Source: Bacteroidota bacterium (GTDB taxonomy: Bacteria; Bacteroidota; Rhodothermia; Rhodothermales; Salinibacteraceae). From it: DNA of 34,471 bases. Shown piece after piece: positions 11,141-34,471 of this stretch. The notes under the pieces were generated by a model. It was given only the letters and a program-made list of their open reading frames with translations. It ran no database searches and was not told the DNA's origin. Made by a program: the position numbers and the translations under genes. The stretch spans positions 1-34,471 of the forward strand of contig JAAAOI010000268.1 of NCBI GenBank assembly GCA_009908945.1, read 5' to 3'. Each line of letters opens with the position of its first letter. Position 1 is the first letter of the stretch.

Positions 11141-11191
11141 CCCGAGCGGCGCCCCCCTTTCGTTACTCTTTCACCCCACCCGCCCTCCACG

Positions 11192-14598: not shown

Positions 14599-16128
14599 AT
14601 GGCCGAGCCCCAAGCTTCCTCTCCCGCCCCTGATGCTCAAGTCGCCGAAGGCGAAGCCAGCCTGCTGGACAGCATCCTCTCCAAAGTGGAAGTCAAGATG
14701 CCGGACGCGTCCGTTCGGGTCTCCGACTTCAAGCACCAGAGCGCTGTAGCCGAAAAAGACCGCGGCGCGATGGTTTCTGCTGCGCTGCGTGTCTTCATCG
14801 ACGCCGTAGCATCGATGGAAAGCAGCGTAGAGAAGATCGACAAGTTCCTGCTGGACAGCCTCATCGCCTCCATCGATGAGAAGATCAGTACGCAGCTGGA
14901 CGTCATCCTGCACCACGACGACTTTCAGGACCTGGAGTCGGCGTGGCGGTCGCTGAAGGACTTGGTGGACCGGACGGACTTCCGGAAAAACATTACGCTT
15001 GAGTTGCTAAGCGTGACCAAGGAGGAGCTGCGCGAGTCGTTTGAGGACGCCCCTGAGCTCATTCAGTCCGCCCTCTACAAGCACGTCTACACCAACGCCT
15101 ACGATCAGCCTGGCGCGGACCCGTATGCGGCTATTGTGACGGACTACGAGTTTGACAGTTCGGCGCAGGATATCGCGCTCCTGCAGAATGCCTCCAAGGT
15201 AGCTGCGTCGGCGCACTGCCCGTTCCTGGCCAACGTCGGGCCTGAGTTTTTTGGGAAAGACTCCATGGAGGAGTGGAAAAAGATTCCCGACCTGACAGCC
15301 TACATGGAAACGGCGGATTACATCAAGTGGAACTCGTTCCGCGACACAGAAGACGCGCGCTACGTGGGCCTCAGCTTTCCGCACTACATGGCCCGCCTGC
15401 CGTATGGCCCGGACACCAACCCGGTGAAATCGTTCAACTACGTTGAGGACGTGAAGGGATCAGACCACGACAAGTACCTGTGGGGCAATTCCTCTTTCCT
15501 GTTTGCCTCGAACATGGTGAAGTCGTTCATGAGCGACGGCTGGTGCGTGCAGATCCGTGGCCCGCAGGCCGGCGGGAAGGTGGACGATTTGCCCGTGCAC
15601 ATGTACGATGTAGGCAAGGGCAAGCAGATGAAAATACCGACGGAGGTACCCATCAGCGAGACGCTGGAGTTTGAGTGTGCCAACCTCGGCTTCATTCCGG
15701 TGAGCCACTATCAGGGGCAAGACTTTGCGGTGTTCTTCTCGGCCAACTCAGCGCAGCGCCCACAGCTCTACGATGATCCAGATGCCACCGCCAACAGCCG
15801 CATCAATGCGCGCCTGCCGTACATCTTCTTGGCCTCTCGTATTTCGCACTACCTGAAGGTGCTGCAGCGTGAAAATATCGGGGCAACGAAGGACAAGACC
15901 GTCATTGAGGACGAGCTGAACGCGTGGCTGAACAGCCTGGTCACCGAAATGCCCAATCCCACACCGGCGCAGGTGGCGAAATACCCCTTGCGTGCTGCGC
16001 AAGTAGAGGTGCATGACGTGGAAGACAACCCGGGCTTTTTCCGCGTGCAAACCTCCATCATGCCGCATTTCCAGATTGAGGGCATGGACATCAACCTGTC
16101 CCTCGTCGGAAAACTCCCGAAGAAATAG
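14599..16128 (+). CDS. tssC: T6SS sheath large subunit TssC (VipB)
   Basis: TssC is the large sheath subunit. The 509-residue product has an N-terminal helix (LLDSILSKVE, about residues 21-30) in the position of the ClpV-recognised helix of VipB. It then has the conserved core: the LESAWRSLKDLVDRTDF block (about 113-129), the ALLQNASKVAASAHCPF region, and the SFPHYMARLPYG stretch. The C-terminal part has GPQAGGKVDDLPVH and ends with the beta strand of the handle domain (MDINLSLVGKLPKK). Length and order are normal. The ATG at 14599 lies 89 bp after tssB. No defects seen. Confidence 0.97.
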   Translation: MAEPQASSPAPDAQVAEGEASLLDSILSKVEVKMPDASVRVSDFKHQSAVAEKDRGAMVSAALRVFIDAVASMESSVEKIDKFLLDSLIASIDEKISTQLDVILHHDDFQDLESAWRSLKDLVDRTDFRKNITLELLSVTKEELRESFEDAPELIQSALYKHVYTNAYDQPGADPYAAIVTDYEFDSSAQDIALLQNASKVAASAHCPFLANVGPEFFGKDSMEEWKKIPDLTAYMETADYIKWNSFRDTEDARYVGLSFPHYMARLPYGPDTNPVKSFNYVEDVKGSDHDKYLWGNSSFLFASNMVKSFMSDGWCVQIRGPQAGGKVDDLPVHMYDVGKGKQMKIPTEVPISETLEFECANLGFIPVSHYQGQDFAVFFSANSAQRPQLYDDPDATANSRINARLPYIFLASRISHYLKVLQRENIGATKDKTVIEDELNAWLNSLVTEMPNPTPAQVAKYPLRAAQVEVHDVEDNPGFFRVQTSIMPHFQIEGMDINLSLVGKLPKK

Positions 16129-16249
16129 CCCCCTGAACGTTCTGGTATCTACCCCCTGTGTGCGCAGTCGCCCCCGGGCGCGGCGCGGGGTACCCACCCC
16201 AGCTTTACCCATTTGGCGCATCAAGGCGCTCACCCTTATCCACTAAGCA

Positions 16250-16843: not shown

Positions 16844-16896
16844 TCGGCTTCTACTGAATCCCTCACTGTTCTGTACCTGTGCCTCGGAGGACGCCC

Positions 16897-19110: not shown

Positions 19111-20135
19111 GCCTCACCGAGGCAACAGCGGCATCTCCTCCGGCAGCAGATCCGATCGCTGCTGCGACGGGTGTTTATGCGCGCCTCTTTGAGCAAGGGT
19201 ACCGGTTTGACTTCTACCAGGCGCTGCGCCTGTTGGAGGCCTATTTCGAGGAGGCGCCCCCGGTGGGAGAGACGACCCGCGTGGCCAACGAGCGCATACG
19301 CCTGCGTCCGCACGACGGGCAGGGGTTTCCGGCGACCGACGTCCGCATGGTAACCCCACCGACCAAGCAGAACCCGCAGGCCACGGTCGTAGCTACGTTT
19401 ATGGGGCTCTATGGCATTGCCTCGCCCCTTCCCGCCGCGCTGTACGAGTCGGGAGCGCAAGAGCCTGCGGCTGTGGCTCCGTTGCACGACTTCCTCGACA
19501 TCTTCAACCACCGCCTGTATGCCTTCTTTTATCGGGCGTGGAAGAAGTATCAAGCAGGCCTCTTCAGCAGACCCGACCCGCAGGATCACCACTACCGGCG
19601 ATTCCGCGCACTCACCGGCCTGCCGCCTGCCGACCCCGAGGTGCCCGTGCAGCCAGAGGCCCTGCTGGCCTTCGCCGGGCACCTGGCATCGCCCGTACGC
19701 AACGCCGAGGGGTTGTATGTGCTGCTGACCGGCCTTTTTGATGACCTGCGCGTGTCCATCACCGAAAACGTGCGCCGGTGGGTAGCGCTGCCGTACCGGC
19801 CCACCATGGGCCGCGGCGCCCACGCCATGACGCTCGGCGCGTCGGCCGTCATTGGGGAGCGCGTGCCGGATGTTGCCGGCATGTTTCGGCTTACGCTCGG
19901 GCCGCTGGACCTGGCGCGCTTTGAGGGGTTCCTGCCCGGCGGGCCGCTGGCCCGGCGCCTGGACTATCTCGTGCGCCTCTATGCACCCGACTTTCTCCAC
20001 TACGATGTTGAGTTGCTGCTGCCCCGCACCGAAGTGCCGCCCCTACGCCTGGGTCACCGCAGTGCCCGGCTGGGACTAAACACGTGGCTCGGTACCCCCG
20101 CCGAGCCCATCACTTGCCGCACCATCACCTACTGA
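19074..20135 (+). CDS. tssG: T6SS baseplate protein TssG (VasB/ImpH)
   Basis: TssG is the second wedge protein of the baseplate and binds TssF and TssK. The 353-residue product has an Ala/Thr-rich N-terminal stretch, then the family start FEQGYRFDFYQALRLLEAYF (about residues 39-58). The LYGIASPLPAALYE segment (about 112-125) and the LHDFLDIFNHRLYAFFYRAW block (about 136-155) are strongly diagnostic. The C-terminus keeps the RLGLNTWLG end motif. The ATG at 19074 lies inside the 3' end of tssF (37-bp overlap, different frame). clpV follows after 14 bp. Confidence 0.95.
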   Translation: MDASGGTSADAVSLTEATAASPPAADPIAAATGVYARLFEQGYRFDFYQALRLLEAYFEEAPPVGETTRVANERIRLRPHDGQGFPATDVRMVTPPTKQNPQATVVATFMGLYGIASPLPAALYESGAQEPAAVAPLHDFLDIFNHRLYAFFYRAWKKYQAGLFSRPDPQDHHYRRFRALTGLPPADPEVPVQPEALLAFAGHLASPVRNAEGLYVLLTGLFDDLRVSITENVRRWVALPYRPTMGRGAHAMTLGASAVIGERVPDVAGMFRLTLGPLDLARFEGFLPGGPLARRLDYLVRLYAPDFLHYDVELLLPRTEVPPLRLGHRSARLGLNTWLGTPAEPITCRTITY

Positions 20136-20149
20136 ACCTCGCCGTTGTT

Positions 20150-22900
20150 ATGATTACCCATGACCTAAAGCGCCTTCTCCAGAAGCTGAACGACCACACC
20201 ACCCGCGCGCTGGAAGCGGCCGTAGGGTTCAGCATTGCACGCGGCCATTACGAGGTCACGCTGGAGCACCTCTTCCTGAAGCTGCTGGAAGACGGCGGTG
20301 GCGACCTCCCCCAGATCCTCGACCATTTCGGCATAGAGCAGGGCCAGGTGTGGGATGCCCTCATCAAGCACATCGAAGCGTTCCGTACGGGCAACACCGG
20401 CCGGCCGGCCTTCGCCCCGACGCTGCTGCAGCACGTGGAGTCGGCCTGGGTGGTGGCGTCGCTGCACCACGGGCTCTCCGAGATCCGCTCCGGCACGCTC
20501 CTGGGCGCCCTCCTGCAAACGGATGGCTTCACCGGCCTCTCCTATGCAGACGCCCTGCAGGGCGTGAAGCGCGATGACCTGCGCGACGCGTTTTTCGACA
20601 TCGTGGCAGGCTCGACCGAGGATGCGCCGCACCAGCGCCGGGCCGGGCAGAACGTCGGCCCCAACGGCGTGCCGCCGGAAGGGGAGACGGCGCTCGACCT
20701 CTACACGAAGGACCACACCGGTGAGGCGCGTGCGGGCAAAATCGATACCATCTCAGGCCGCGATCAAGAGATCCGGCAGATCATCGACATCCTGAGCCGA
20801 CGCCGCAAAAACAACCCGATCCTGGTAGGGGAGCCCGGCGTAGGGAAGTCGGCCGTGGTAGAAGGGCTGGCGCTGCGCATCGCCGACGGGGACGTCCCGG
20901 ACAGCCTCAAGGAGGTCGAAATCCGCGGGCTCGATCTGGGCCTCCTGCAGGCGGGCGCGGGCGTGAAGGGCGAGTTTGAGCAGCGGCTGAAATCCGTGAT
21001 CGAAGAGGTGCGGGAGGCCTCCAAGCCCGTCATCTTGTTCATCGACGAAGCCCACACGCTCATCGGTGCAGGGGGCGCCGCGGGCACGAGCGATGCGGCC
21101 AACCTCCTGAAGCCCGCCCTCGCCCGAGGCGAGCTCCGCACCATCGCGGCTACCACGTGGAGCGAGTACAAGAAGTACATCGAGAAGGACGCGGCCCTGG
21201 AGCGGCGCTTTCAGATGGTGAAGATTGATGAGCCGTCGGTCGAGAATGCGGTCATCATGCTCCGGGGCATCAAGGGCGCGTACGAGGCGCACCACGGCCT
21301 GCCCATTTCGGATCAGGCGGTACGCGCCGCCGCCGAGCTGGCCGAGCGCTTCATCGCCGGGCGCTTCCTGCCGGACAAAGCCGTAGACCTGCTCGACACC
21401 TCCGCCGCGCGCGTCAAGATGGCCCGCACGGCTACGCCGCCCCCGGTGGATGATTGCCGCCGCCAGCTGACCTATCTGGAGAAGGAAATAGCATCCATTC
21501 GGGACGACCTGCAGTCCGGTGTGGGCGGCGATGACGGTCGGCTGACCGAGCTGGAGGCCCGGCGCGAGGCGATGTCCGGGGAGCTGGCTACCCTGGAGGC
21601 GCGCTGGGCCGAGGAGAAAGCCCTGGTCGATGAGATCGACGCGGTGCGCGCCAAGCTGAATGGCAACGGAGCCTCCACCGTTACGGCCGGAGCGACGGCA
21701 GATGCAACCGCGGAAGTGGCGGCTGAGGCCACGGACGAAGCAGGCGAGGTGACGCCAGAGACTGCAGGCGGAGACGGCGAGGCTACGGGCGCATCCACTG
21801 ACCTGCCGGCCCATGCGCTGCTGGAGGCGTTGGCCGCCCATCAGGCGAAGCTGGCCGCGCTGCAGGAAGACCGCCAGCCGCTGGTGACGGCTGAGGTGGA
21901 TGCGGCCGTGACGGCCGCGGTGGTCTCCGACTGGACCGGCATCCCCGTGGGCGCCATGGAGAAGGACGAAGCAGCCACGCTGCTGGCCCTCGAAGACCGC
22001 CTCAAAGAATCGATCCTGGGGCAGGACGAGGTCATCAACGAAATCGCCGACAGCATCCGCACCGCCAAGTCGGGCCTCCGCAATCCGGACGCCCCCACCG
22101 GGGTGTTTCTGTTTGTGGGGCCCAGCGGCGTGGGCAAGACCGAGTGCGCGCGTACCATTGCGGAGCTGCTTTTTGGCGGCGAGCGCTTCCTCACCACCAT
22201 CAACATGTCCGAGTACCAGGAGTCGCACACCGTCTCCCAGCTCAAAGGCTCACCTCCCGGCTACGTGGGCTACGGCGAAGGCGGCATCCTGACGGAAGCC
22301 GTGCGGCGCCAGCCCTATTCCGTCGTCCTGCTGGATGAAGTGGAGAAGGCCCACCGCGACGTCATGAACCTGTTCTACCAGGTCTTCGACAAAGGCTTCA
22401 TGCGGGATGGCGAAGGGCGCGAGGTCAGCTTCAAGAATACCATCGTGATGATGACCTCCAACCTGGCGTCCGACACCATCTCCTACGTCTGTACCGAAGA
22501 CGAACGGCCCGGCCCCGATGCCCTCCGCAAGGCCATCCACGAGACGCTGGCTGACTGGTTTCAGCCGGCGCTCCTGGGACGGATGAAGGTGGTGCCCTTC
22601 TATCCGCTTATGAAGGCGCCCATGCAGGGCATCGTCAAGATTAAGCTCGGCCGCATCAACAAGCGGCTGCAGCAGGCTCACGGCGTCGCCTTTACCTATG
22701 CCGATGCGGTGGTGGACCGCATAGCGGAGCGCTGCACCCAGGTGGATACCGGTGCGCGCAACATCGACTTCATCATCGACCGCGACGTGCTGCCCGCGGC
22801 GTCCCGCCAGCTCATCGCTCGAATGGCCGACGAGGACATGCCGGAGGCGCTTGCGCTGGGCCTGGACGAGGCGGGTAACTTCACCTACAACTTCACCTGA
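20150..22900 (+). CDS. clpV: T6SS sheath-recycling AAA+ ATPase ClpV (TssH)
   Basis: ClpV disassembles contracted TssBC sheath. The 916-residue product starts MITHDLKRLL at ATG 20150; a longer in-frame reading to 20084 runs through the 3' end of tssG and is rejected. The N-terminal Clp repeat domain (about 1-150) precedes AAA1, with Walker A GEPGVGKS (227-234) and Walker B FIDEAH (297-302). AAA2 has Walker A GPSGVGKT (657-664) and Walker B LLDEVEKAH (727-735). Between the two AAA domains, after a coiled-coil segment, there is a low-complexity Ala/Thr/Glu/Gly-rich insertion at about 504-551, resumed by helix ALLEALAAHQAKLAAL and SDWTGIPVG. All catalytic motifs look intact. Confidence 0.95.
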   Translation: MITHDLKRLLQKLNDHTTRALEAAVGFSIARGHYEVTLEHLFLKLLEDGGGDLPQILDHFGIEQGQVWDALIKHIEAFRTGNTGRPAFAPTLLQHVESAWVVASLHHGLSEIRSGTLLGALLQTDGFTGLSYADALQGVKRDDLRDAFFDIVAGSTEDAPHQRRAGQNVGPNGVPPEGETALDLYTKDHTGEARAGKIDTISGRDQEIRQIIDILSRRRKNNPILVGEPGVGKSAVVEGLALRIADGDVPDSLKEVEIRGLDLGLLQAGAGVKGEFEQRLKSVIEEVREASKPVILFIDEAHTLIGAGGAAGTSDAANLLKPALARGELRTIAATTWSEYKKYIEKDAALERRFQMVKIDEPSVENAVIMLRGIKGAYEAHHGLPISDQAVRAAAELAERFIAGRFLPDKAVDLLDTSAARVKMARTATPPPVDDCRRQLTYLEKEIASIRDDLQSGVGGDDGRLTELEARREAMSGELATLEARWAEEKALVDEIDAVRAKLNGNGASTVTAGATADATAEVAAEATDEAGEVTPETAGGDGEATGASTDLPAHALLEALAAHQAKLAALQEDRQPLVTAEVDAAVTAAVVSDWTGIPVGAMEKDEAATLLALEDRLKESILGQDEVINEIADSIRTAKSGLRNPDAPTGVFLFVGPSGVGKTECARTIAELLFGGERFLTTINMSEYQESHTVSQLKGSPPGYVGYGEGGILTEAVRRQPYSVVLLDEVEKAHRDVMNLFYQVFDKGFMRDGEGREVSFKNTIVMMTSNLASDTISYVCTEDERPGPDALRKAIHETLADWFQPALLGRMKVVPFYPLMKAPMQGIVKIKLGRINKRLQQAHGVAFTYADAVVDRIAERCTQVDTGARNIDFIIDRDVLPAASRQLIARMADEDMPEALALGLDEAGNFTYNFT

Positions 22901-22966: not shown

Positions 22967-25900
22967 ATGACTACACCCTATAGCTTTTCGCTCTTAAGCG
23001 CCAACGCCGATGTGGAGCTGGACGTCTTCAGCTTTGTGGGGCGCGAACGCATGTCGCAATTGTATCAGTTTGAAGTTACGGTGTCCGCGACAGCTCCCCT
23101 GAACATCGACGCCGCTGTGGGCGAGCGAGCCGAGCTGATGATGCGGCAGGAACGCACTGTTGAGGGCACGGCGGAAGTGCTCAGCCGGCCGGTCTACGGG
23201 ATTGTCAGCGAGGTGCAAGTGGGCGCCCGTAAGGAAGTCGGCGATGACATGCTGGACTTCTACCGCTTTCAGGTGGTGCCGCAGCTCTGGAAGCTGTCGC
23301 TGAGCCGGCGCAGCCGGGTCTTTCGCGACAAGACGGTGGGCAGCATCCTGCACACTGTGCTCTCCGGGGCGGGCTTGCAGGCAGACGTAGACTTCCACGT
23401 CCAACTGGGCAGCGACGCCCAGGGGGCCCTCTACGAGGAGCGGGAGTTCTGCGTGCAGTACAAGGAAAGCGACTTTGCTTTCATCAGCCGCCTGATGGAG
23501 TACGAGGGCATTTTCTACTACTTCGAGATGGAGGAGGCAGAAGAGGCGGAGAAGAGGCGGGAGGTCCTTGTGATTACGGACGGGAACCCGGCGGATGAAC
23601 TCCCCGACGTGGAGTACCAGGACCGCAGTGCTTCGGACCCCAGACCGGCTATTCATCGCATGACGCTTCGGCGCACCCTCACGCCAGGCAAGGTGCGAGT
23701 GTGGAATAATGACGTTGGGGATTTCAAGGAGCATGGCGACTCAGAGGCCCCCGTCGCTCGCGGGGATGAAGGGGTGGCGTATGAGGAAGACGGGGAATGG
23801 CTCCAAGAGAAGCGAGGGGCCACCGAGCAACATGTCGACGACAACGTGGGCGACCTTGACCGGCTCGGGCAGCGCCTCGGCCAGGTGGCCCGCCGCCGCT
23901 CCGAGGAGATTGCGGCCAACCAGGCCGGCGCCTACCGCGGGCAGATGACGGATCCGCGCTTCTGGGCCAGCGCCGTGGTGGAGCCTACCCTGTGGAACGA
24001 AAACGGCCCGGGCGATGCGCCCGCGCTCCCGGGTGGCGAGACGCGCTTCCTGATCACGAGCCTGCACCACGCGGGTGCCCAGCGCAGCGGGACGCATGGC
24101 GGATTTGACGAACGCGACACGCAACTCGATGCCTACCCCACCGATCTGCAGCCCCTCCTGCAAACCGCCGGCCAAACGAACGAAGCGGCCTACGCTGGGG
24201 CCTTCACGTGCATCCCAGCGGCCAAGCCCTACCGCGCCCCGCGGACTACGCCGGTACCCCGCGTGCCCGGCATCCTCACCGCCAAGATTGAGGACCAGGG
24301 GGAGGCTACCGTAGATGCAGAGGGGCGCTACCGCCTGCGTATGCATTTTGACCACGATGAGCATGAGGCGAACACTGAAGGCTCCACACGGCCCGTGCAT
24401 ATGGCCCAGCCCTACTCAGGGCCCGACTATGGTTTCCACTTTCCCAACCGGGAAGGAGCGGAGGCGGTCGTATCTTTTATCGATGGCGACATCAACCGCC
24501 CGGTGATGCTCTCCACCGTACCGACGCCCAAGAACCACACCGTCGTTCCCAATACCAAACACAAGCTGCCCACGCAGAATGCACCGGAAGGGGCGGGTGC
24601 TGCGGCTGTCGCTGCAGGGGAGGGCATAACGCCCGAGAACCAGGAACCTCAAACCTTTGATGCCAACAAGAATGTTATCCAGACGAAGAAAGGCCATCGA
24701 CTGGTCATGGATGATAATGACGGCACCGGTAACGTGGGGATCAGTCTGCAAGTTGGCAAAAGTCCGATTGAGGGCGGCACAGCCGACGCGTACTGGGCCT
24801 CCCGTATTGATATGGGCGGCTACCGGAAGAAGGCCTTCATCGAACAGTTTATGGATAGCGCCTCCCACGTGCACCCGTGGCTGGGATCTGCACTCTCGAA
24901 GCGGATTCAGGCCATTCCTGAATATGCCGGCCTGATCGGTGAGATTACGGCGTCTGCCGTCTCGACGGGCAACTATATCTCGGATACGTTCGGAGATACG
25001 GCGCCGGTGGGCATTGGCGGGGTGTCTTCCCAGGACGTGAAATTTGCAGGCGCCAACGGCGTTAATCTCATCATGCCCAATCTGCTGGGCGCCTGGGGCG
25101 TCGGCATCCTGCCAGGCCTTGGGCCAGGCAACCACCGCGTCGGCAACGCCATCGTCAATTTCCTGATCAACGTGCTGTATCAGGACACAATCAGGGAGGG
25201 GATGGACTTTGCTGAAAACGTCAAGAAAAAGAGCCAGGATGCAGATCCGGATTTTCCAGAGCTTGGCAAAGAATGGTCACGGTTGCAAGACTTCTGGGGA
25301 TGGGAGAAAAAGAAGAAACTTGCTTTCGTCAGTGGCACCCTGCAAAGCGCTATGGGCATGCCGGCAATCAACCTGAAGTCAGCCGCTGGTATCAACCTGG
25401 CAGCCTTCGGCAAGACGTCCGTTATGGGCGGCTACGGCGGGATCGAGCTCGAGTCCAAATCCGTGATGAATCAAAGTGCCGACCTGGATTTCAACATCGA
25501 AGCCAAGCAGAGCCTGGTGATCAAGACGAAGGGCAAGCCGATCGGCTCCCCAGGCTTTCTGGGCGTCTGGCCGCGGTTGGCCGGGGCCTTCCCTCTCGTG
25601 AAGAATATTCCGTTTCCGAAGAAGGCCAGCCCGAAACCGTCGCCGGCGGATTGCCACCTGACCCTCCTGAATGAGAACCAAAACATCCAGCTTTTTACAC
25701 CAGAGGGCGACATCCGAGCAAAGGCAAAAAATACGCTCCATCTGGAGTCCACAAAGGGCAGCATTACGGCGGAGGCGCCGGAGGGAGCCATCTGCCTGAA
25801 CACGGGCACCGCTGGCGTTAATGTCCGTGAGGACAGTGGGGTCAGCCTGATATCCTCCAAGGAGCCTATCTCCCTGGTGGCCGGCAAGGCGTCGATTACG

Positions 25901-26479
25901 CTGCACCCGGATGGCACGATCGATATAAACGGCACGAAGGTCACCGTCAATGGGTCGGACGAGACCCTCGTAAAGGGTGGAAAGACGCTCGAAATGCACG
26001 GAAAGACGACCACCATCAACGCGTCCGCTCCACCGCCGGGCAGCCCGCCGCAGATGCCCGATAAGCCGGATGCAATGGCGGCACCGATACTGGATCAGAT
26101 GGAGCCTGTAGAGCCCTCCCCCGATGCATCGAAGGAGGAACTGAAACGTGTTGCAGCCCTGAACAAGAGTATCGCGGAGTACAATGCAGCGCAACAGCGG
26201 CGCTACCAAAAGCGAGAGCAAGAATATAGCAAGTACATCAAGGCCCTCGAAAAATATTACACGGACATAAGCGCGTGGGTAAGCAAGACCGGCCAGGCCA
26301 CCGCTACCCTTGAGTTGGGGACGAGTGGCATTAAGGCGGATACGAAGTCTGACGTCAAGATCACGTGTACCAACTATTCTACGGACGCCAAGCTAAAAAG
26401 CGAGACGAAGGGCACCATGATAGATGCTAACGCCAAGGGCATCTTATCTATCAAGGGGGCCATGACAAAGATTGGGTAG
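22967..26479 (+). CDS. vgrG: T6SS spike protein VgrG (TssI) with central insertion and C-terminal extension
   Basis: VgrG trimers form the puncturing tip. The 1170-residue protein has the gp27-like base (residues 1 to about 420, with FVGRERMSQLYQFEVTV and the YKESDFAFISRLMEYEGIFY block), then the gp5-like OB fold (about 430-525, GRYRLRMHFD and GPDYGFHFPN). The spike starts at NVIQTKKGHRLVMDD (about 567). An unusual region, roughly 610-880, is Gly/hydrophobic and Lys-rich and not typical VgrG. The beta-spike resumes and peaks at ASITLHPDGTIDINGTKV (about 973-990). A Pro-rich linker, a helical/coiled-coil segment (about 1055-1105) and a further beta-like tail end the protein. The region from about 24650 is visibly less GC-rich than neighbours. 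PAAR, rhs and accessory genes follow, so it probably carries their cargo. Confidence 0.93.
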   Translation: MTTPYSFSLLSANADVELDVFSFVGRERMSQLYQFEVTVSATAPLNIDAAVGERAELMMRQERTVEGTAEVLSRPVYGIVSEVQVGARKEVGDDMLDFYRFQVVPQLWKLSLSRRSRVFRDKTVGSILHTVLSGAGLQADVDFHVQLGSDAQGALYEEREFCVQYKESDFAFISRLMEYEGIFYYFEMEEAEEAEKRREVLVITDGNPADELPDVEYQDRSASDPRPAIHRMTLRRTLTPGKVRVWNNDVGDFKEHGDSEAPVARGDEGVAYEEDGEWLQEKRGATEQHVDDNVGDLDRLGQRLGQVARRRSEEIAANQAGAYRGQMTDPRFWASAVVEPTLWNENGPGDAPALPGGETRFLITSLHHAGAQRSGTHGGFDERDTQLDAYPTDLQPLLQTAGQTNEAAYAGAFTCIPAAKPYRAPRTTPVPRVPGILTAKIEDQGEATVDAEGRYRLRMHFDHDEHEANTEGSTRPVHMAQPYSGPDYGFHFPNREGAEAVVSFIDGDINRPVMLSTVPTPKNHTVVPNTKHKLPTQNAPEGAGAAAVAAGEGITPENQEPQTFDANKNVIQTKKGHRLVMDDNDGTGNVGISLQVGKSPIEGGTADAYWASRIDMGGYRKKAFIEQFMDSASHVHPWLGSALSKRIQAIPEYAGLIGEITASAVSTGNYISDTFGDTAPVGIGGVSSQDVKFAGANGVNLIMPNLLGAWGVGILPGLGPGNHRVGNAIVNFLINVLYQDTIREGMDFAENVKKKSQDADPDFPELGKEWSRLQDFWGWEKKKKLAFVSGTLQSAMGMPAINLKSAAGINLAAFGKTSVMGGYGGIELESKSVMNQSADLDFNIEAKQSLVIKTKGKPIGSPGFLGVWPRLAGAFPLVKNIPFPKKASPKPSPADCHLTLLNENQNIQLFTPEGDIRAKAKNTLHLESTKGSITAEAPEGAICLNTGTAGVNVREDSGVSLISSKEPISLVAGKASITLHPDGTIDINGTKVTVNGSDETLVKGGKTLEMHGKTTTINASAPPPGSPPQMPDKPDAMAAPILDQMEPVEPSPDASKEELKRVAALNKSIAEYNAAQQRRYQKREQEYSKYIKALEKYYTDISAWVSKTGQATATLELGTSGIKADTKSDVKITCTNYSTDAKLKSETKGTMIDANAKGILSIKGAMTKIG

Positions 26480-26610: not shown

Positions 26611-26940
26611 ATGTCGTTACCTGCCACCACCGTCACCGCATCAACGGTCCACGGCCCGCCCATTATGGGCCCCGGGTGTCCCACCGTGCTTATCGGCGGG
26701 AAGCCGGCCTGGCGCGTCGGGGATACGCATACGTGCCCCATGGTGAATGCGCCTCCCCCTGCAGGCCCCGGCACGCCCCACGGGCCCGGCGTCACCATGC
26801 CCCCGGGCTCCGTCACCGTGCTAATTGGCGGGATGCCCGCCTGCCGCACCAGTGACAAGGTGAGTGAGCCCGCTGCGGTCGTGCCGTTGCCGCCCATCAA
26901 CCCCATCTTGCCGGGTGTACCCACCGTATTGATTAAATAA
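26611..26940 (+). CDS. PAAR-domain spike-tip protein
   Basis: PAAR proteins cap the VgrG spike with a sharp zinc-bound cone and attach effectors. The 109-residue product is made only of the PAAR fold: the repeated pattern GPGCPTVLIGGKPAWRVGD, HTCPMV, GPGVTMPPGSVTVLIGGMPACR and LPGVPTVLIK. Candidate metal ligands are His40 and Cys42 (THTCP) plus Cys77 in MPACR. There is no N- or C-terminal effector extension, so cargo must bind non-covalently, most likely the Rhs protein or its accessory partners downstream. It follows vgrG after the 16-bp tandem repeat. The ATG at 26611 is the natural start. Confidence 0.93.
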   Translation: MSLPATTVTASTVHGPPIMGPGCPTVLIGGKPAWRVGDTHTCPMVNAPPPAGPGTPHGPGVTMPPGSVTVLIGGMPACRTSDKVSEPAAVVPLPPINPILPGVPTVLIK

Positions 26941-26984
26941 CCAGGCCCGGCGGCGCCCCGTGCGCGGCCGAGGCGTTGCGCCCC

Positions 26985-29663
26985 ATGCCCCTTCACGTTC
27001 ACGTCATCTCTGGTGCCACCGAGTGTTACGAGGAAGACCTCGTACGGCCCGGGCTCATCCCCGTGCGGGTAGCGCGCCTGTATGATAGCCGCCACCCTGG
27101 GGTGGGGGGGTGCGGCCGGGGCTGGATGCTCAATCTGGCCCTTACGCTTACGGTGACCGATGCGTATGTAACCCTGAAGACACCGGGCGAGCCCGATGTG
27201 GTCTTCTCGCCGATTCGGGAAGGGGTTACCGCCGTGCAGGAGGGCACCGGCTATGTGCTCGATCACTACGCGGATCGCTACGAGGTTGTCCGTGCTCCGG
27301 GATACCGACTTCTGTTCTCCAAGCACCTGGCCGCTGGCGGTGTGCACCCGCTGAGACGTATTGAAGACCGCGCAGGCAACCACGTCCAACTCGGCTACCG
27401 AGGCCGCACCCTTACGGAGGTGGCAGACACCCAAGGCCGCCTTCTGCGCCTCCAGCGTACGGGGGGGCTGCTTACCGCACTGGAGGTAACCCCACCGGGG
27501 GGCGGCGCAGGGCAGCAGGTGCGCACCTACGCTTATAACGCCCGGGGCCAGCTTGTGCGGGTGACTGATGCCATTGGCGCTGAGACGCGGTACCACTACG
27601 ACGGCGAGGTGCTCGTGCAGTACACGAACCGCGTGGGTGGTGCGACCTACGCGCAGTACAACGACGACCGGCAGTGCATCGCCTGCTGGCAGAGCAACAA
27701 CGCCCGAGCTCGCCGTGTGGCGTACGACGACCGGCAGCAGCTTACCCGCGTCATCGACAGCACAGGCCAGCAACACCTGTATCAGCACGCCGGCGAGGCG
27801 TTCGTGCTGAAGCACTTCTTCCCCAATGGGACGGAGCAGGTATATTACTATGACGAGGTCCAGCGCCTCATCGGATATGCCGCGATGGATGGACAGGTCG
27901 CTACGTTTCAACGGTATGAAAGGGAGGAGCAGACATTTCAGCAAATCGACGGTGAAGCACGCCTGGCTACGGTGCTACTTTCAGACACCGGCCAGGCCGC
28001 GCACGTAGCCGACGGGGCGGGCCACTCGTTCGCGCTGACGTACGATGAACGTGGATTTTCAGCCGGTCTGAAGACCCCAGCGGGGCACGCCTGGCAGTGG
28101 GCGCGCGACAAACGGGGGCGCCCCGTGTCCCTGACAAGCCCCGAAGGACGGATGGCGCGCTGGGCATGGGACGGGAGCGCGGGGTGCACGGTAACAGACG
28201 CCGATGGCGCACCGACGCATGTACGATACAATAACGCAGGCCGCATCGTGGAGGTCGTGCGAGCCGAGGGGGTGGCCCACGCCTTTGCGTACGATGCAGA
28301 GGGGCGCCTGACGGGTGTGACCCTCCCCGATGGCACAGCGCTCCGGTTTGGCTACGATAGCGAGGGCCACCTGACGGCGGTATCCGACACGCGCAATCGC
28401 CGGGAAGCCTTGCGCTACGATGCCTTCGGGCAGTGCACCTCGTATGCGTCTGGGGCTGCGCGGTGGCAATTCACCTGCGATAGCGAAGGGCGGCTGGTAA
28501 CCGTGCAGGATAACGCGGGGACAACCTACGCGCTGGCCTACCAGGCCGATGGGCGATTGCAGACGGTCCATGCCGATAGGGCCGCGTGGGCTGCGATTAC
28601 TTACGCAGAGGATGGGCTCATAGAGATCGACCGGCCTTCCGGGCATTATGCCGCCCGCTATAACGGCCTGGGGCAGCTTCTTGAGGAGCACAGCCCCCGT
28701 GGCGTACGGTCCCTTGCGTACACGCCCTCCGGCGCGTTGGCCAGTGCCCAGGTAAACGGTGACGCCCGCCACCTCACGTACACGCCCGACGGGCTGGTCC
28801 AGGTCTGTAGTGCCGATGCGCAGGACGTAACCCTGCAATACGACCGCGACGGGGTATTGCAGGGGGTGCACATCGGAGGAGCTCGGGTGCTGTCGCTGGA
28901 CGTGGACAAGGCCGGCCGGCTGCAAGCGCTCCAGATGGAAGGACGGCCACGCCGTCAGTACCGCTATGTCCCAGCCCACCGCCTACAGGAGGTGATTGGC
29001 GCCGATACGGTGCTTGCTTCGGTAGCGTATGGGGGCAACCAACGCCGTCTCCGCACCCCCGGTAAGGGGCAGGTTGACGATGCCGTGCTCGGGCACACTG
29101 CCTTGGGGGGGGAAGCAGAGGTCCGCCTTCAACTCACGACTGACGGCACGCATGTCGTCTCCCGGATGGCCTATGGTGGTGTGCTACTGCCCGTGTGGGT
29201 TCACACAGCTCAGCCTCACCGCACCCCGCCCCTGCATCAGGAAATAGCCCAAGCCTGTACCCTTCGCCCCACCGCCGCCCTCCTGCCATCGCCGATGCCT
29301 GCCCTGCAGACGTACGCGCGCTGGCGCGGTGCCCTTGCCACGCGCTGCCCGCTTACCAAGCTACCCATCGGGCTGCTTCCTGCGTGGTGGCAGCCGCTGG
29401 CCGCATCGTATGCCCTACAGCCCGCCGCCCAACAGCCGGTTGGGGGGCACGACCGCCCGCTGCAGCCGCTGCGTGGCCCGATGGATTTGGATCGGAGCCC
29501 AGACCCCGTCATCACGGGCCCGCACCAGCAGCAGGCTCTATGGCCGACGGTCTGGCCAGATCGGGCGATAAACCCCGTGCCGCTTGTGCCAGCAGGGATC
29601 GCGCGCCGTGGCGGCCCGACACCGCGCGAGATGCTGAAGTGGATTGAGCAGGAGGATACGTGA
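26985..29663 (+). CDS. Rhs/YD-repeat protein, probable T6SS cargo shell without a recognisable core or toxin tip
   Basis: The 892-residue product begins with a DUF6531-like segment (VISGATECYEEDLVRPGLIPV, VARLYDSRHPG, GRGWMLNL), then about 20 degenerate Rhs/YD repeats (patterns such as AYNARGQLVRVTDAIGAETRYHYD and AFAYDAEGRLTGVTLPDGTALRFGYDSEGHL) to about residue 700. Rhs repeats fold into a hollow beta cocoon that normally encloses a C-terminal toxin cut off after a DPxGx-type core motif. Here that motif is not seen. The last 170-190 residues are Pro/Ala/Gln-rich, with no known toxin signature. A TTG at 26976 would add three residues; ATG 26985 is preferred. It shares one base with the next gene (TGATG), so the two are translationally coupled. 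Confidence 0.85.
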   Translation: MPLHVHVISGATECYEEDLVRPGLIPVRVARLYDSRHPGVGGCGRGWMLNLALTLTVTDAYVTLKTPGEPDVVFSPIREGVTAVQEGTGYVLDHYADRYEVVRAPGYRLLFSKHLAAGGVHPLRRIEDRAGNHVQLGYRGRTLTEVADTQGRLLRLQRTGGLLTALEVTPPGGGAGQQVRTYAYNARGQLVRVTDAIGAETRYHYDGEVLVQYTNRVGGATYAQYNDDRQCIACWQSNNARARRVAYDDRQQLTRVIDSTGQQHLYQHAGEAFVLKHFFPNGTEQVYYYDEVQRLIGYAAMDGQVATFQRYEREEQTFQQIDGEARLATVLLSDTGQAAHVADGAGHSFALTYDERGFSAGLKTPAGHAWQWARDKRGRPVSLTSPEGRMARWAWDGSAGCTVTDADGAPTHVRYNNAGRIVEVVRAEGVAHAFAYDAEGRLTGVTLPDGTALRFGYDSEGHLTAVSDTRNRREALRYDAFGQCTSYASGAARWQFTCDSEGRLVTVQDNAGTTYALAYQADGRLQTVHADRAAWAAITYAEDGLIEIDRPSGHYAARYNGLGQLLEEHSPRGVRSLAYTPSGALASAQVNGDARHLTYTPDGLVQVCSADAQDVTLQYDRDGVLQGVHIGGARVLSLDVDKAGRLQALQMEGRPRRQYRYVPAHRLQEVIGADTVLASVAYGGNQRRLRTPGKGQVDDAVLGHTALGGEAEVRLQLTTDGTHVVSRMAYGGVLLPVWVHTAQPHRTPPLHQEIAQACTLRPTAALLPSPMPALQTYARWRGALATRCPLTKLPIGLLPAWWQPLAASYALQPAAQQPVGGHDRPLQPLRGPMDLDRSPDPVITGPHQQQALWPTVWPDRAINPVPLVPAGIARRGGPTPREMLKWIEQEDT
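29651..29656 (+). promoter_or_regulatory. Shine-Dalgarno GGAGGA deciding the pentapeptide gene start
   Basis: GGAGGA lies inside the last codons of rhs, six bases before ATG 29663 and only three before an alternative GTG at 29660. The spacing favours the ATG, which overlaps the rhs stop codon by one base. Confidence 0.7.
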
Positions 29664-30742
29664 TGGCGGCTCAAGCGACCATAACACCCATGCCCCAACC
29701 CCTCGCGCTCTCTGAGGGGGCGGCTTATGCGGATGCCAACCTTTCGGGGGTAGACTTCGCGAAGCAGCAGGGAGCGGGCGCTACCTTCCAGGCCTGTGTG
29801 CTGGATCACGCGATGTTTGGCGGGTCCGATTTATGCGATGTCCACATGTCGGAGTGCGTGCTTACCGGGGCATCGCTTGCGAAGACGGATCTTACAGGGG
29901 CCGTATTTGAAGCGGCTGTGCTCCGGGACGTCTCGTTCGAGGGGGCCCAGATGCAGGGCGCAACGTTTATTGGATGCGACCTCAGCGAAAGTGTGTTTAC
30001 AGGAGCCGTGCTCACCGGCTGTACCTTTAACGCGTGCACGCTGGCACATGCCACACTGGACGGCTGTGATTTGACCGGAAGTGTCCTGGACGAAAGCACG
30101 CTGACGGGGGCTACCCTCGCCGATACGGCCTTGATGAAGGCTTCGTTGCAGGGCACCATCCTGATCGATGCCACGCTCGCAAGGGCCGACCTGACCGGGG
30201 CGAACCTGCATACCGCTGTGCTCTCGGGAGCTGACCTGACCGACGCTATTTTCAACAAAGCCCGCCTCTCGCAGGCGGTGCTGGAGGAGGTACGGGCCCC
30301 CCGGGCCTCCTTTCAGAAAGCAACGCTGGCCGCGGCGTTCTTTCGGCGCGCCGACCTGAGCCGCTGTGACTTTACCGGTGCGCTCCTTTCGACTGCCGTC
30401 TTCGAGCGGACCAGCATGGGAGCAGCCCTGCTCGTCCGCGTCGAGGGAGAAGGCGTGAGCTTTGCTTTTGCCAACCTGCAGCAGGCCCTCTTTCATGAAG
30501 CGGACCTTCCACTGGCATCCTTCCTCGGCGCTGACCTCACCGGGGGGCAGGCCATTGGTGCCGATTTTTACGGCGCCGACTTCGAGTGGGCGCAGGTGGA
30601 TGCGTTCGATGACCGTGCCTGCCATATGCTGCATGCGCGTAGGCCTACAACGGATCACCCAGCCTACGGTCCGAGCGCGCAGCCGCCCCCGGTGAAACCG
30701 CAGTCACTTGCGCGCCCATCGGCTCCTCCCGATACTGCCTGA
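29663..30742 (+). CDS. Pentapeptide-repeat protein of the T6SS cargo module
   Basis: The 359-residue product is built of pentapeptide repeats of the A(D/N)LXX type from about residue 25 to 310 (e.g. ADLTGANLHTAVLSGADLTDAIF), predicted to form a right-handed quadrilateral beta helix. The centre of many repeats is Leu, Phe or Val as expected. The last 50 residues are Pro-rich and probably disordered. In many T6SS loci, pentapeptide repeats occur beside or fused to DUF2169, and here the DUF2169 gene follows 26 bp downstream, so a joint role in loading Rhs/PAAR cargo is likely (inference). Other pentapeptide proteins mimic DNA and protect gyrase; nothing here points that way. It is coupled to rhs by a one-base overlap. 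Confidence 0.88.
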   Translation: MAAQATITPMPQPLALSEGAAYADANLSGVDFAKQQGAGATFQACVLDHAMFGGSDLCDVHMSECVLTGASLAKTDLTGAVFEAAVLRDVSFEGAQMQGATFIGCDLSESVFTGAVLTGCTFNACTLAHATLDGCDLTGSVLDESTLTGATLADTALMKASLQGTILIDATLARADLTGANLHTAVLSGADLTDAIFNKARLSQAVLEEVRAPRASFQKATLAAAFFRRADLSRCDFTGALLSTAVFERTSMGAALLVRVEGEGVSFAFANLQQALFHEADLPLASFLGADLTGGQAIGADFYGADFEWAQVDAFDDRACHMLHARRPTTDHPAYGPSAQPPPVKPQSLARPSAPPDTA

Positions 30743-30768: not shown

Positions 30769-31818
30769 GTGGATATCCGCAACGCCACATCGCTTGAAAC
30801 AGGCGTTACCCTCGGCCCCGGGCCTGAGGGGCGGCCTGGGGTCAGCGTGATTGTGAAGGGCACGTTTGCGATACCAGAAGAGACCGGGGCGAGGGCGCCG
30901 CTTGCTGATGAGCAGCTGCCGCTGTGGGAAGAGGACCTGCACTTTGACGGGGATACCAGCGCGAGCGTTCAGTTTGAGGCGGATACTGCGCCATATAAAC
31001 CAGCGGCCGATATTGTGCTTGTTGGACACGCCTACGCGCCCAATGGACGCCCTACTCCCAGGGTGGATGTCCTCCTGCGCGTAGGGCCACATAAACATAT
31101 TCTCCGGATCGTGGGCGATCGCCAGTGGACCTTCCCTTCGCGCATGCTCATGAAACCGCTGCTCAGTGAGCCGCAGCCCTTCACCACGATGCCGCTGCGC
31201 TACGAGCGCGCTTTCGGTGGGCGCGACCAGGTAGGCGCGGGCTACTGTGAGGCGAATCCGCTCGGGCAAGGATTCATTGCGGCTAAAGCCCGCGATGCCG
31301 TGCACGAGAAGCCGCTACCCAACATCGAGGATCCATACCAGCCCATCACGGCGTGGAACGATCGCCCGCGTCCTGTGGGCTTTGGCTTTTACGGAAAGAC
31401 CTGGGCCCCCCGGAGCGCTTTCAGGGGCACCGAGGCAGGTCTCGCAGCCCCCGACCCGGTGCTGGGCCTGCCGTCAGACTTCACTCCGAAATTCTTCAAC
31501 GGGGCCCACCCCGACTTGCAGGTGCCGGGCTATCTGCAGGGGGACGAGAAGGTGGAGCTGTTCAACCTCACGCCCAATGGCCCCTGCGCCTTTCACTTGC
31601 CAGGCATCACCCCTGAGGTGCGGCTTACGCTACATGAACAGCGCGCCGCAGCGGCCGAAGAGGCCGCCCTGCATGTCCTACACGGGGCGCTCGATACGCT
31701 TGTCTTGTTACCGGATGAGCACAGAGGGTATGTCGTTTGGCGGTTTTGGCATCCGTTGCCTCAGCGCTATGAAGACGTAGAAGATGTGGCGTACGTCACG
31801 GTACGCCTTTGCGCATAA
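30769..31818 (+). CDS. DUF2169-family T6SS accessory protein
   Basis: The 349-residue product carries the DUF2169 hallmarks: VIVKGTFAIPE near residue 30, PxxADIVLVGHAYAP (about 78-92), YERAFGG (145-151), NPLGQGF (163-169) and LPNIEDP (183-189), and FNGAHPDLQVPGYLQGDE later. DUF2169 proteins are found next to vgrG, PAAR and pentapeptide genes and are regarded as T6SS cargo adaptors; the exact mechanism is not established for this one. Translation starts at GTG 30769, the first codon that keeps the conserved MDIRNATSL opening. It is 26 bp after the pentapeptide gene and closes this unit: a hairpin lies 4 bp after its stop. Confidence 0.9.
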   Translation: MDIRNATSLETGVTLGPGPEGRPGVSVIVKGTFAIPEETGARAPLADEQLPLWEEDLHFDGDTSASVQFEADTAPYKPAADIVLVGHAYAPNGRPTPRVDVLLRVGPHKHILRIVGDRQWTFPSRMLMKPLLSEPQPFTTMPLRYERAFGGRDQVGAGYCEANPLGQGFIAAKARDAVHEKPLPNIEDPYQPITAWNDRPRPVGFGFYGKTWAPRSAFRGTEAGLAAPDPVLGLPSDFTPKFFNGAHPDLQVPGYLQGDEKVELFNLTPNGPCAFHLPGITPEVRLTLHEQRAAAAEEAALHVLHGALDTLVLLPDEHRGYVVWRFWHPLPQRYEDVEDVAYVTVRLCA

Positions 31819-31963: not shown

Positions 31964-32002
31964 GTGATGACCTGCCGTGATGACCTGCCGTGATGATCAG
32001 CC
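31964..32002. repeat. 13-bp direct repeat, three tandem copies, before the fused sheath gene
   Basis: GTGATGACCTGCC occurs perfectly at 31964 and 31977 and with two changes at 31990. Each copy begins with GTGATG, which offers several spurious start codons and is why start assignment for the following gene is uncertain. The last copy ends 49 bp before the chosen ATG. Confidence 0.8.
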
Positions 32003-32051: not shown

Positions 32052-33926
32052 ATGAGCGACCAACCCACCGACGGCGCAGGCTTTCGCATCACGTCCGACC
32101 CCGACCGCACCGAAATCACACAGCCCGGAAGGGACGCCCTGGAGCGCCCGGAGGTGCTGCCGCTGCGGATGCTGTTGGTAAGTCACCTGACGCCGGAGGC
32201 GGCTACGCCTTCATGGGAGAGCGGCGTGCACACCACCACCGTGGATGCCGCCGGCTTTGGCCCGTATATGGAAGCAGCGGCGCCCACGCTGGAGGTCAGC
32301 GTGCCGAACCGGGTCAGCGCGTCGCCCGAACGCCTCTCGGAGACCCTGCAGTTTACGTCGCTGGCCGACTTCTCGCCGGAGGGGGTAGCCGCGCAGCTGG
32401 CTGTGACTGCGCCGCTACTGGAGCTTCGAAAAGGGCTGGCCGAGGTTGCGGCTGGCGATCAGGCGCTGGATGAGGTGCGCGCATCGCTGGAGGATGGTGC
32501 GCTGAGCGGTTCGGTAGAAGCACTGCTGGATGCGCTGGGCAAGAGGTCGCGGGCAGGCGACACGGGAGCCAACGGGCGGCCCCCCGATACCAAGGAAGAC
32601 ACGCTGGACCGCCTGCTGTCGATGGTGGATGACGACGCCCCGGAGGCCTCACCGGATGCGCTGGCGGACGCCCTCACGGAGGCGGTGGTCGGGCCGTCGG
32701 ATACCACGCCGCGTCCGGCCGCCGATGCGCTGACGCAGGTGGTGCACCGGCTGGAGGCCCTGATCCGCGCCCAGCTTGAACCTGTGTTTGCGGACGTCTC
32801 CTTCCGCGCGCTCGAAGCTGCCTGGCGTAGCGTGCGTCTGCTCACCAAGCGCTTGCCCTTTCGAAAAGGCGTGGTGCTGGAGGTGCTGTCCGCTGCACCT
32901 GACCAGCTCAACGAGGCCATCCATCATCAGGTGGTGATGCGCGAGCACACGCGCACCGACGATGCGCCACCGCTCTCGGCGGTGCTGGTGGATACCGCCT
33001 TCGGCTGCACGCAGCCGGCGATCGATCAACTGCAGGACCTCGCCGCCTCTGGCGCCAGTGTGCAGGCCCCCATCATTGCGGCTGCAGCGCCGGCCTTCTT
33101 TCAGGTCGACCCTGCTCAGGCGCTCCATGACCTCCCGCCGCTCCGGCAGGTACTGGACGACCCGGCCTTCCTGCCCTACAAAAAACTTCGTGCTGATGAG
33201 GCCGCACGCGCGCTCGTACTCGCCCTACCAGCCTTCCTGCTACGCACGGCCCATACAGCGGACAGTGGTGCGCTGGTCGAAGATGCGCCGCTCTGGGGGC
33301 AGGCGCCCGTGGCTGTGGGGCTGGCCATGGCGGACAGCTTCGTGGCCACCGGCTGGCCCACGCACCTGCGCACCCGCATGCTGGGCAACTTTCCCATCCA
33401 CCGTACGCCGCAAGGCTATACCCCACTGGCCGCGCTGATTCCAGAGAGCAAGCTGGCGGGCTTTGCAAAAGGCGGTTTTACGGTGCTTACCAGCAAATCA
33501 AACCATGACGGGATTGCGCTGGGCCGCGCGCAGACGGTGGCGCTACCCGCCGAACACGAAGACCTCGTGGCGGCCACCGAAGCGCGTGTGCACGTGACGC
33601 TTCCCTGCCAACTCTTCGTAGCGCGGACGGCGCAGTTCCTGTTCACGCTGCAGTCAAGCGTCACGGCCGGGCCTGATGTAGAAGCCACAGCAGCCACCCT
33701 GAATGAGCACATCCGGGCCTTCTTGAAGGCGGGGGAGCCTACCCGGGTGGTTCCGCCGGAGGCGGTATCGGTAGAACCGGTGCCGGACGCGCCCATGGAA
33801 GGAAAGGCCCTCTTTGCCGTGCGGCTTCGTCCGCCTGCCTTTGTGCTCGACAAAGAGGTAAGTCTCGTGCTGGGCGTGCAGGTGCCCACCGCCGAACCGT
33901 CGGCTGATGCCCCCCCGTCCACCTGA
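32052..33926 (+). CDS. Single-chain TssB-TssC-like fused sheath protein
   Basis: The 624-residue product aligns by eye with both canonical sheath subunits of this locus. Residues about 30-165 match TssB: LPLRMLLVSHL (TssB LPLRMLVMGDYL) and DFSPEGVAAQLAVTAPLLELR (TssB SFSPEAVAQQIPELSRLLATR). An acidic/Pro-rich linker with DTLDRLLSMVD (TssC SLLDSILSKVE) leads to residues about 225-615 matching TssC: IRAQLEPVFADVSFRALEAAWRSV (TssC ISTQLDVILHHDDFQDLESAWRSL), LPFRKGVVLEVLS, GNFPIHRTPQGYTPLA near 445, and VHVTLPCQLFVARTAQFL near the end. It is highly diverged and unlikely to replace TssB/TssC in bulk. It could be a minor sheath or cap subunit or a regulator (inference). Upstream in-frame starts at 31977 and 32022 exist; ATG 32052 is preferred because homology begins after it. 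The FHA gene follows 29 bp later. Confidence 0.85.
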   Translation: MSDQPTDGAGFRITSDPDRTEITQPGRDALERPEVLPLRMLLVSHLTPEAATPSWESGVHTTTVDAAGFGPYMEAAAPTLEVSVPNRVSASPERLSETLQFTSLADFSPEGVAAQLAVTAPLLELRKGLAEVAAGDQALDEVRASLEDGALSGSVEALLDALGKRSRAGDTGANGRPPDTKEDTLDRLLSMVDDDAPEASPDALADALTEAVVGPSDTTPRPAADALTQVVHRLEALIRAQLEPVFADVSFRALEAAWRSVRLLTKRLPFRKGVVLEVLSAAPDQLNEAIHHQVVMREHTRTDDAPPLSAVLVDTAFGCTQPAIDQLQDLAASGASVQAPIIAAAAPAFFQVDPAQALHDLPPLRQVLDDPAFLPYKKLRADEAARALVLALPAFLLRTAHTADSGALVEDAPLWGQAPVAVGLAMADSFVATGWPTHLRTRMLGNFPIHRTPQGYTPLAALIPESKLAGFAKGGFTVLTSKSNHDGIALGRAQTVALPAEHEDLVAATEARVHVTLPCQLFVARTAQFLFTLQSSVTAGPDVEATAATLNEHIRAFLKAGEPTRVVPPEAVSVEPVPDAPMEGKALFAVRLRPPAFVLDKEVSLVLGVQVPTAEPSADAPPST

Positions 33927-33955: not shown

Positions 33956-34471
33956 ATGTTCTCTCGGCTCCGCACATCCTCCCCCGCTACGCTACCGCCC
34001 GTTCGGGTGCGGGTGGTAATGGACGATGTATCGGACGATGGAGCCGCCGCGCAGACGTTCAGCGTACCCGTCCAGATCGGCCGGGAGGCTTCTTGCGCGG
34101 TGCACGTGCCGGCCCCAAACGTGAGCCGGATCCACGCGGCTACGGAGTGGGCCGAGGGGACGTGGTGGGTCGTAGATCAAAATAGCACCAACGGCCTGTT
34201 CGCCGGGGGCACGCGCATGGAGCGCGTACCGGTGCAGGGGGCCACGGAAGTGCGGCTGGGGAAGGACGGCCCGGTGGTGGTGTTGACCGCTGAACGTGGC
34301 GCTTCCGACGCTAAGCCCGTTCCGAAACGAGCGGCGTCACAGGGCCGCCCGTTCAGTGCTTCCGGGGCCCGCACCGGGCCGCGGGAGCGCGCCGCTACAA
34401 CGGGGGCGGTGCCGCCCCCGCGCGAAGCTACGGGTGCAGATGATGCGGCCCGCCTGGAGGGGGGCTCTGTC
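33956..34471 (+). CDS. FHA-domain protein, 3' end beyond the window
   Basis: An open frame runs from ATG 33956 to the window edge (172 codons, no stop). Residues about 16-120 form a forkhead-associated domain: VQIGREASCAVHVPAPNVSRIHAATEW and the QNSTNGLFAGG turn, keeping the Gly-Arg, S-x-x-H and N-S-T-N-G residues that bind phosphothreonine. The remaining residues to the edge are Pro/Ala/Arg-rich and look like a disordered linker to another domain that is not in view. It sits 29 bp after the fused sheath gene, so the two probably form one unit. A Thr-kinase/phosphatase pathway, a T6SS scaffold, or a membrane FHA protein are all possible; the missing part would decide. Confidence 0.85.
   Translation, partial: MFSRLRTSSPATLPPVRVRVVMDDVSDDGAAAQTFSVPVQIGREASCAVHVPAPNVSRIHAATEWAEGTWWVVDQNSTNGLFAGGTRMERVPVQGATEVRLGKDGPVVVLTAERGASDAKPVPKRAASQGRPFSASGARTGPRERAATTGAVPPPREATGADDAARLEGGSV

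Follow-up and report, generated by a model that had tools for sequence, protein, structure and literature searches.

A single-chain TssB-TssC sheath paralogue beside the canonical T6SS sheath genes in Rhodothermales

The window, meaning the whole stretch of 34,471 nucleotides that was analysed, contains a complete canonical T6SS locus, and adjoining it a gene in which TssB and TssC are joined in one chain. In the source order, Rhodothermales, this fusion lies between the spike-loading genes (VgrG, PAAR and Tvp) and an operon for FHA-SLT, PP2C and Ser/Thr kinase proteins, of which the FHA gene alone is visible in the window before the contig ends. The canonical tssB at 13976, the canonical tssC at 14599 and the FHA gene 29 bp downstream of the fusion are located as the original prediction claimed. 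The genes of the locus are as follows.

3456–4682, + strand: FHA protein with a T6SS_FHA_C domain (TagH/Fha-like), distinct from the FHA gene at 33956
Starts at 4773, 5357, 6791 and 7562: TssJ, TssK, TssL and TssM, respectively
11192–12130, + strand: TagF
Start at 12143: TssA
13976–14509, + strand: canonical tssB (Pfam, NCBIfam)
14599–16128, + strand: canonical tssC (Pfam, NCBIfam)
Start at 16158: Hcp
Start at 16879: TssE, assigned from its position and its resemblance to the equivalently placed gene of other loci
Starts at 17356 and 19074: TssF and TssG, respectively
20084–22900, + strand: tssH/ClpV (NCBIfam)
22967–26479, + strand: VgrG
26611–26940, + strand: PAAR protein
26976–29663, + strand: Rhs/YD-repeat protein (Pfam, NCBIfam)
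29660–30742, + strand: pentapeptide-repeat protein, a possible Tvp partner (Pfam)
30769–31818, + strand: DUF2169 protein (TvpA-like PAAR chaperone; Pfam)
32052–33926, + strand: single-chain TssB-TssC paralogue of 624 aa (uninterrupted ATG-start frame, Pfam, NCBIfam, order alignment, AlphaFold2, PDB matches)
33956–34471, + strand: FHA gene, cut by the end of the window

DUF2169 proteins are PAAR chaperones in Tvp complexes (PMC13373197). Just 5′ of the fusion gene, within a 233-bp intergenic gap, lies a 13-bp tandem repeat (gtgatgacctgcc, approximately 2.6 copies, 31964–31997). Several other genomes carry in place of the pentapeptide/DUF2169 pair, directly 5′ of the fusion, DcrB-domain genes (PF08786; L150:11570-12824 and L149:3348-3911), which we take to be Eag-chaperone-like.

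The start of the fusion gene was assigned to the ATG at 32052, which fits the conserved start of the family in the alignment; an alternative GTG at 31977 was rejected, as it lies inside the tandem repeat and is unsupported by that conserved start. A fused, highly diverged TssB-TssC paralogue had been predicted here, a proposal that would have fallen had the N-terminal third lacked a TssB profile match. T6SS_VipA (PF05591) matched residues 36–145 (E 9.4e-14; 51.9 bits against a gathering cut-off of 24) and VipB (PF05943) matched residues 229–496 (E 1e-30; 107 bits against 27). The NCBIfam equivalogs for TssC (TIGR03355, 1.9e-32) and TssB (TIGR03358, 1.3e-13) were also matched, with scores of 112.7 and 51.1 bits that fall far under the respective cut-offs of 271.5 and 97.25, identifying the fusion as a diverged paralogue. 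A search of its own genome otherwise matched just the canonical TssC, at 26% identity, and TssB, and identity to canonical TssC is about 25–31%. The gp25-like handshake domain PF18945 found no Pfam match in the fusion, though the C-terminal domain still aligns and its secondary structure is predicted.

The AlphaFold2 model of the fusion (pLDDT 80, pTM 0.79) agreed with the original prediction of joined TssB and TssC halves. Its nine best PDB matches were all T6SS TssC sheath chains (TMt 0.65–0.75), TssB 5urw was likewise matched (TMt 0.65), and similarity to phage, R-pyocin and eCIS sheath proteins was weaker than to TssC. The modelled protein thus carries the T6SS sheath fold, with disorder predicted for residues 1–32 and about 169–221 (the latter with pLDDT < 50). 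The following parts were distinguished.

32052–32156, + strand: N-terminal arm, with strand-like GFRITSDPDRT and a connector longer than that of TssB, predicted to be disordered in isolation (alignment, AlphaFold2)
32109–32111, + strand: codon of Thr20, a candidate phosphosite (alignment)
32157–32486, + strand: TssB/VipA-like half with the TssC-docking helix (V112, L116, L123) (Pfam, alignment)
32544–32714, + strand: low-confidence linker joining the halves, residues 165–221 (AlphaFold2)
32601–32630, + strand: TssC N-terminal (ClpV-type) helix motif TLDRLLSMVD within the linker (alignment, matrix search)
32736–33539, + strand: TssC/VipB-like N-terminal and middle domain, without the VipB 127–137 helix segment (Pfam, alignment)
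33540–33923, + strand: strongly diverged TssC C-terminal (handshake, tube-facing) domain and C-terminal donor strand (alignment, AlphaFold2)

An assembly artefact or accidental frameshift was rejected, the same single frame being present in many genomes, including the single-contig genomes G037 and G033, with a dN/dS of 0.11–0.16; orthologues in other genomes likewise rule out an oddity confined to the window. A phage or viral origin was also rejected, as the search of viral contigs found no relative of the fusion and the PHROG and PADLOC searches gave no match.

An NrfD-like ACIII subunit encoded in the source genome has its best PDB match in 6f0k of Rhodothermus marinus (874 bits, against 615 for 6btm), in keeping with an assignment to Rhodothermales. 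The fusion was found in 18–19 genomes of the source order, single-contig ones included, and 15 full-length orthologues align end to end with 28–43% identity to the window protein. Among 114 genomes of the order, canonical TssBC was present in 22, 17 of which also carry the fusion, and the fusion was found in two of the 92 genomes negative for canonical TssBC, both incomplete MAGs (Fisher p 5e-14 for co-occurrence). Put the other way, 17 of the 19 fusion carriers have canonical tssB/tssC, and the remaining two genomes are incomplete. Within the order, co-occurrence of the fusion with T6SS is near-obligate. A further, very diverged copy of 468 aa directly precedes the FHA-SLT gene of G804, and the contig of G012 stops where the fusion would be expected before that gene. 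Among T6SS carriers outside the order in the phylum sample, the fusion was absent from all six. At equal dS of about 0.5, dN/dS was 0.106 for the fusion, 0.011 for TssC and 0.030 for TssB; by these estimates the fusion is constrained, yet about tenfold less than lattice TssC.

The family proved to be widespread, which goes beyond the original prediction. Single-frame TssB-TssC proteins are also present in Acidobacteriota, Myxococcota, Planctomycetota (about ten of the 48 genomes with a match), Nitrospirota and Sumerlaeota, giving, among the phyla surveyed, at least six with that of the source order, and in these other phyla the gene mostly accompanies a canonical pair in the same genome. The scan of genome contigs returned mainly canonical adjacent tssB/tssC genes in two frames, which were checked and excluded. 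In two differently sampled trees built on the TssC half, all full-length single-chain forms fell in one clade (A) with 100/100 support, the long branches leaving relationships inside it unsure. The VipB 127–137 helix segment is shortened in 25/25 clade A members and in 0/38 canonical TssC. Separate fusions in each phylum are ruled out for clade A by the tree and the common deletion. Clade A is an ancient group of single-chain TssB-TssC paralogues, present alongside the two-chain sheath and not as its replacement. The literature search, which covered open-access publications, found none on natural TssB-TssC fusions, and the family is apparently undescribed.

Three shorter proteins of Acidobacteriota (about 500 aa; G381, G468 and G402; loci L197:9352-10866, L196:9125-10603 and L199:9009-10592) are nested among canonical TssC in the trees and stop where the C-terminal handshake domain of TssC would start. 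By its placement this clade (B) is a second, independent fusion event, and from its sequence it could pass an arm to a neighbour but receive none, like a chain terminator. Two other arrangements were observed. The planctomycete locus L207 has a tandem pair of dissimilar single-chain TssBC genes (8483–10291 and 10324–11793; 603 and 490 aa), the second without linker or helix, and diverged stand-alone TssC-like genes stand beside canonical tssC in T6SS loci of Acidobacteriota and Planctomycetota (L198:3993-5330; G997, G965 and G1022).

The gene immediately 3′ of the fusion encodes an FHA-transmembrane-SLT transglycosylase protein in 16 of 19 order loci, which answers the call of the original prediction for a neighbour survey of FHA linkage. 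It is mostly followed by genes for PP2C, a transmembrane Ser/Thr kinase with PEGA domains, and CsgG-like and TPR proteins, and the linked set of transmembrane kinase, PP2C and FHA genes adjoins the fusion in 12–13 of the 19. In G043, G029 and G053 the whole signalling block, with the fusion leading, is on a contig apart from the tssB/C core, indicating that the fusion is tied to this block no less closely than to the core. The operon is not strictly dependent on the fusion, since the place of the fusion ahead of the FHA-SLT/kinase operon is taken in G008 by a HEAT-repeat gene (L223:8314-10419). Outside the order, the single-chain genes lie near VgrG or DUF2169 genes (G528, G507, G402), core genes (G341, G541, G977), FHA genes (G541) or an FHA-GAF-HisKA gene (G335), and the Myxococcota loci examined showed no recognisable T6SS or FHA gene near the fusion. 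Together with G017 and G025, in which the FHA/kinase operon does not adjoin the fusion, the Myxococcota contexts indicate that location in a T6SS and phospho-control both have exceptions. The earlier idea of a phospho-regulated add-on is reasonable by its FHA/PP2C/kinase context.

The operon resembles the PpkA/PppA/Fha threonine phosphorylation pathway in combining a transmembrane Ser/Thr kinase, PP2C and FHA proteins, and the likeness extends to the TagF and Fha-like genes of the core cluster in the window. Unlike that pathway, the FHA protein here has transmembrane and SLT transglycosylase domains, the kinase has PEGA domains, and a sheath paralogue heads the operon. With an FHA domain, a single membrane-spanning segment and an SLT lytic-transglycosylase domain on the same chain, the FHA protein (full-length at L141:9469-11343) is a possible direct link from phospho-signalling to cell-wall opening for T6SS. 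Within the N-terminal arm of the fusion (order consensus VGIRITSDPDxT), the position of Thr20 is Ser or Thr in 15/15 aligned order members. Lying in a segment predicted to be disordered and encoded near the kinase/phosphatase/FHA operon, Thr20 is a candidate phosphosite.

The features on which sheath assembly depends were examined in the fusion. Sheath cohesion involves the donation of the TssB N-terminal and TssC C-terminal strands to neighbours (PMC5807055, PMC5813253). These donor arms, formed by the opening strand of TssB and the closing strand of TssC, are still chain ends in the fusion, and the TssB-TssC order, by leaving both at free ends, makes it compatible with assembly. The amphipathic helix by which TssB docks TssC (V106, I110 and L117 in E. 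coli TssB1; PMC3840085) is also kept, the I110 site being hydrophobic in 15/15 and the L117 site in 14/15 order members. The arm-accepting C-terminal domain appears to be present in every clade A member examined; the Myxococcota forms begin almost at the following strand and have no N-arm. Like the TssB/TssC (VipA/VipB) sheath, then, the fusion has the homologous halves, fold, docking helix, donor arms and ClpV-type helix, and unlike it the fusion is one chain with a deleted helix segment, a mostly lost K223 and a longer N-arm connector. The gp18 phage, R-pyocin and eCIS (Afp/PVC) sheath proteins share the form of one chain with N- and C-terminal arms, and the fusion would act as a single-chain protomer as they do, but with its TssB plus TssC sequence, TssC-type ClpV helix and T6SS loci it is not a member of that group.

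We tentatively propose, at somewhat less than an even chance, that the clade A paralogue is a minor specialised protomer of a starter or collar ring at the sheath base, phospho-gated and working beside the canonical sheath. Its halves would fold together as one TssB-TssC protomer, which would form a specialised, minor ring within the canonical sheath and not its bulk lattice. At the base, such a starter or collar would license or hold assembly on the loaded baseplate, gated by kinase/phosphatase/FHA signalling, for which Thr20 is the candidate site. More generally, the fusion probably serves as a specialised or regulatory subunit of the sheath and not as its bulk material; the special ring and the regulator first suggested for it are both compatible with the kept arms and the lost lattice residues. 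The constant presence of the acceptor domain in clade A, set against an N-arm that varies (long in the order, missing in Myxococcota), points to a starter or collar near the baseplate and makes a distal cap the less likely position. In Serratia, Fha foci form at the basal complex ahead of sheath assembly (PMC6082577), which fits a role of the fusion at the base.

An inhibitory lock, in which the fusion is built sparsely into the growing sheath and, by way of its long arm and missing contraction contacts, holds it extended or stops its growth until dephosphorylation or extraction by ClpV, is judged improbable. In V. cholerae, VipA-N2 to N7, with at least two extra connector residues, are non-contractile and dominant negative over wild type, as is VipB-D333A, acidity at D333 being needed for contraction (PMC5797969), and the arm of VipA-N3 binds within its own ring (PMC5797969, PMC5813253). 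The fusion family resembles these engineered mutants in its longer connector and its partial loss of charge at D333, and differs from them in being natural, diverged and encoded by a separate gene. The connector comparison also speaks for the specialised ring proposed above. The D333 site is acidic in 15/15 canonical proteins and non-acidic in 8/15 order fusions; the remaining seven, including the window's own fusion (Glu), are acidic. The connector has 17–18 residues in canonical TssB and about 20–26 in order fusions, a difference of approximately 2–8 that hangs on the alignment judgement that GFRITSD/RIT(S) is the beta-1 donor strand, an alternative register giving a nearly canonical length. 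Against a lock, and equally against the proposed ring, stands the K223 site, which is K in one order fusion and lost in 14/15. The K223A change in V. cholerae VipB prevents assembly, so that the fusion may be unable to enter the lattice at all.

The linker could instead make the protein a ClpV-facing regulator that recruits, titrates or positions ClpV, with the sheath fold used for docking only, a reading to which we give a low probability. In other species, the helix at the N-terminus of TssC is a binding site for ClpV (PMC5048182). By sequence, the linker (TLDRLLSMVDDD) carries a helix motif of this type (conserved form LDRLLGMVD), and the helix is the most conserved segment in the order, with a mean column identity of 0.58 against 0.20–0.43 elsewhere and 0.21 and 0.26 in its linker flanks. 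It recurs in almost all single-chain members across six phyla. A putative ClpV helix of the TssC type is retained, exposed in a linker predicted to be disordered, and the original suggestion that a buried helix may let the chain resist ClpV recycling found no support. The helix may however be a mere inheritance from TssC; a matrix of canonical TssC outscored shuffled linkers (p < 0.05) in only 16 of 28 linkers, and ClpV binding in E. coli is cluster-specific (PMC5048182).

Similarly small is the chance that the fusion is a neofunctionalised scaffold, outside any sheath ring, through which the basal complex holds the FHA-SLT protein or the loaded spike. The position of its gene between the VgrG/PAAR/Tvp and FHA-SLT genes would suit such a tether, as would the loss of 103 of the positions invariant in 15 canonical TssC, 34 being kept, but the donor arms, handshake domain and TssB-TssC docking helix are kept across the order. 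A separate homopolymeric single-chain sheath or short ring, with its own tube or for a different machine, would match the one-chain layout seen in sheath proteins of phages and pyocins and the presence of both arms and the C-terminal domain, but is very unlikely given that no Hcp, baseplate or ClpV genes of its own adjoin the fusion, that nearly all carriers have a canonical T6SS, and that its constraint is relaxed, unlike that of a lattice protein.

The proposed base ring can be extended to the family as a whole. The protomer of at least six phyla would then be a dedicated sheath-base ring that licenses or locks assembly, its arm phospho-controlled in the order, and clade B would be a convergent chain terminator; in this full form the proposal is more doubtful and on balance unlikely. 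Some members of the clade have no kinase operon next to the fusion, so phospho-control may be order-specific.

T6SS sheaths in the literature cited polymerise from two components, a single TssB and a single TssC. In the phyla covered here, counting TssB and TssC matches can miscount T6SSs. A paralogue with its arms and ClpV-type helix has been kept beside the normal pair for very long, linked in one order to phospho-signalling, and offers a way into the question of which factors besides TssE, TssA and TagA start, cap or hold the sheath.
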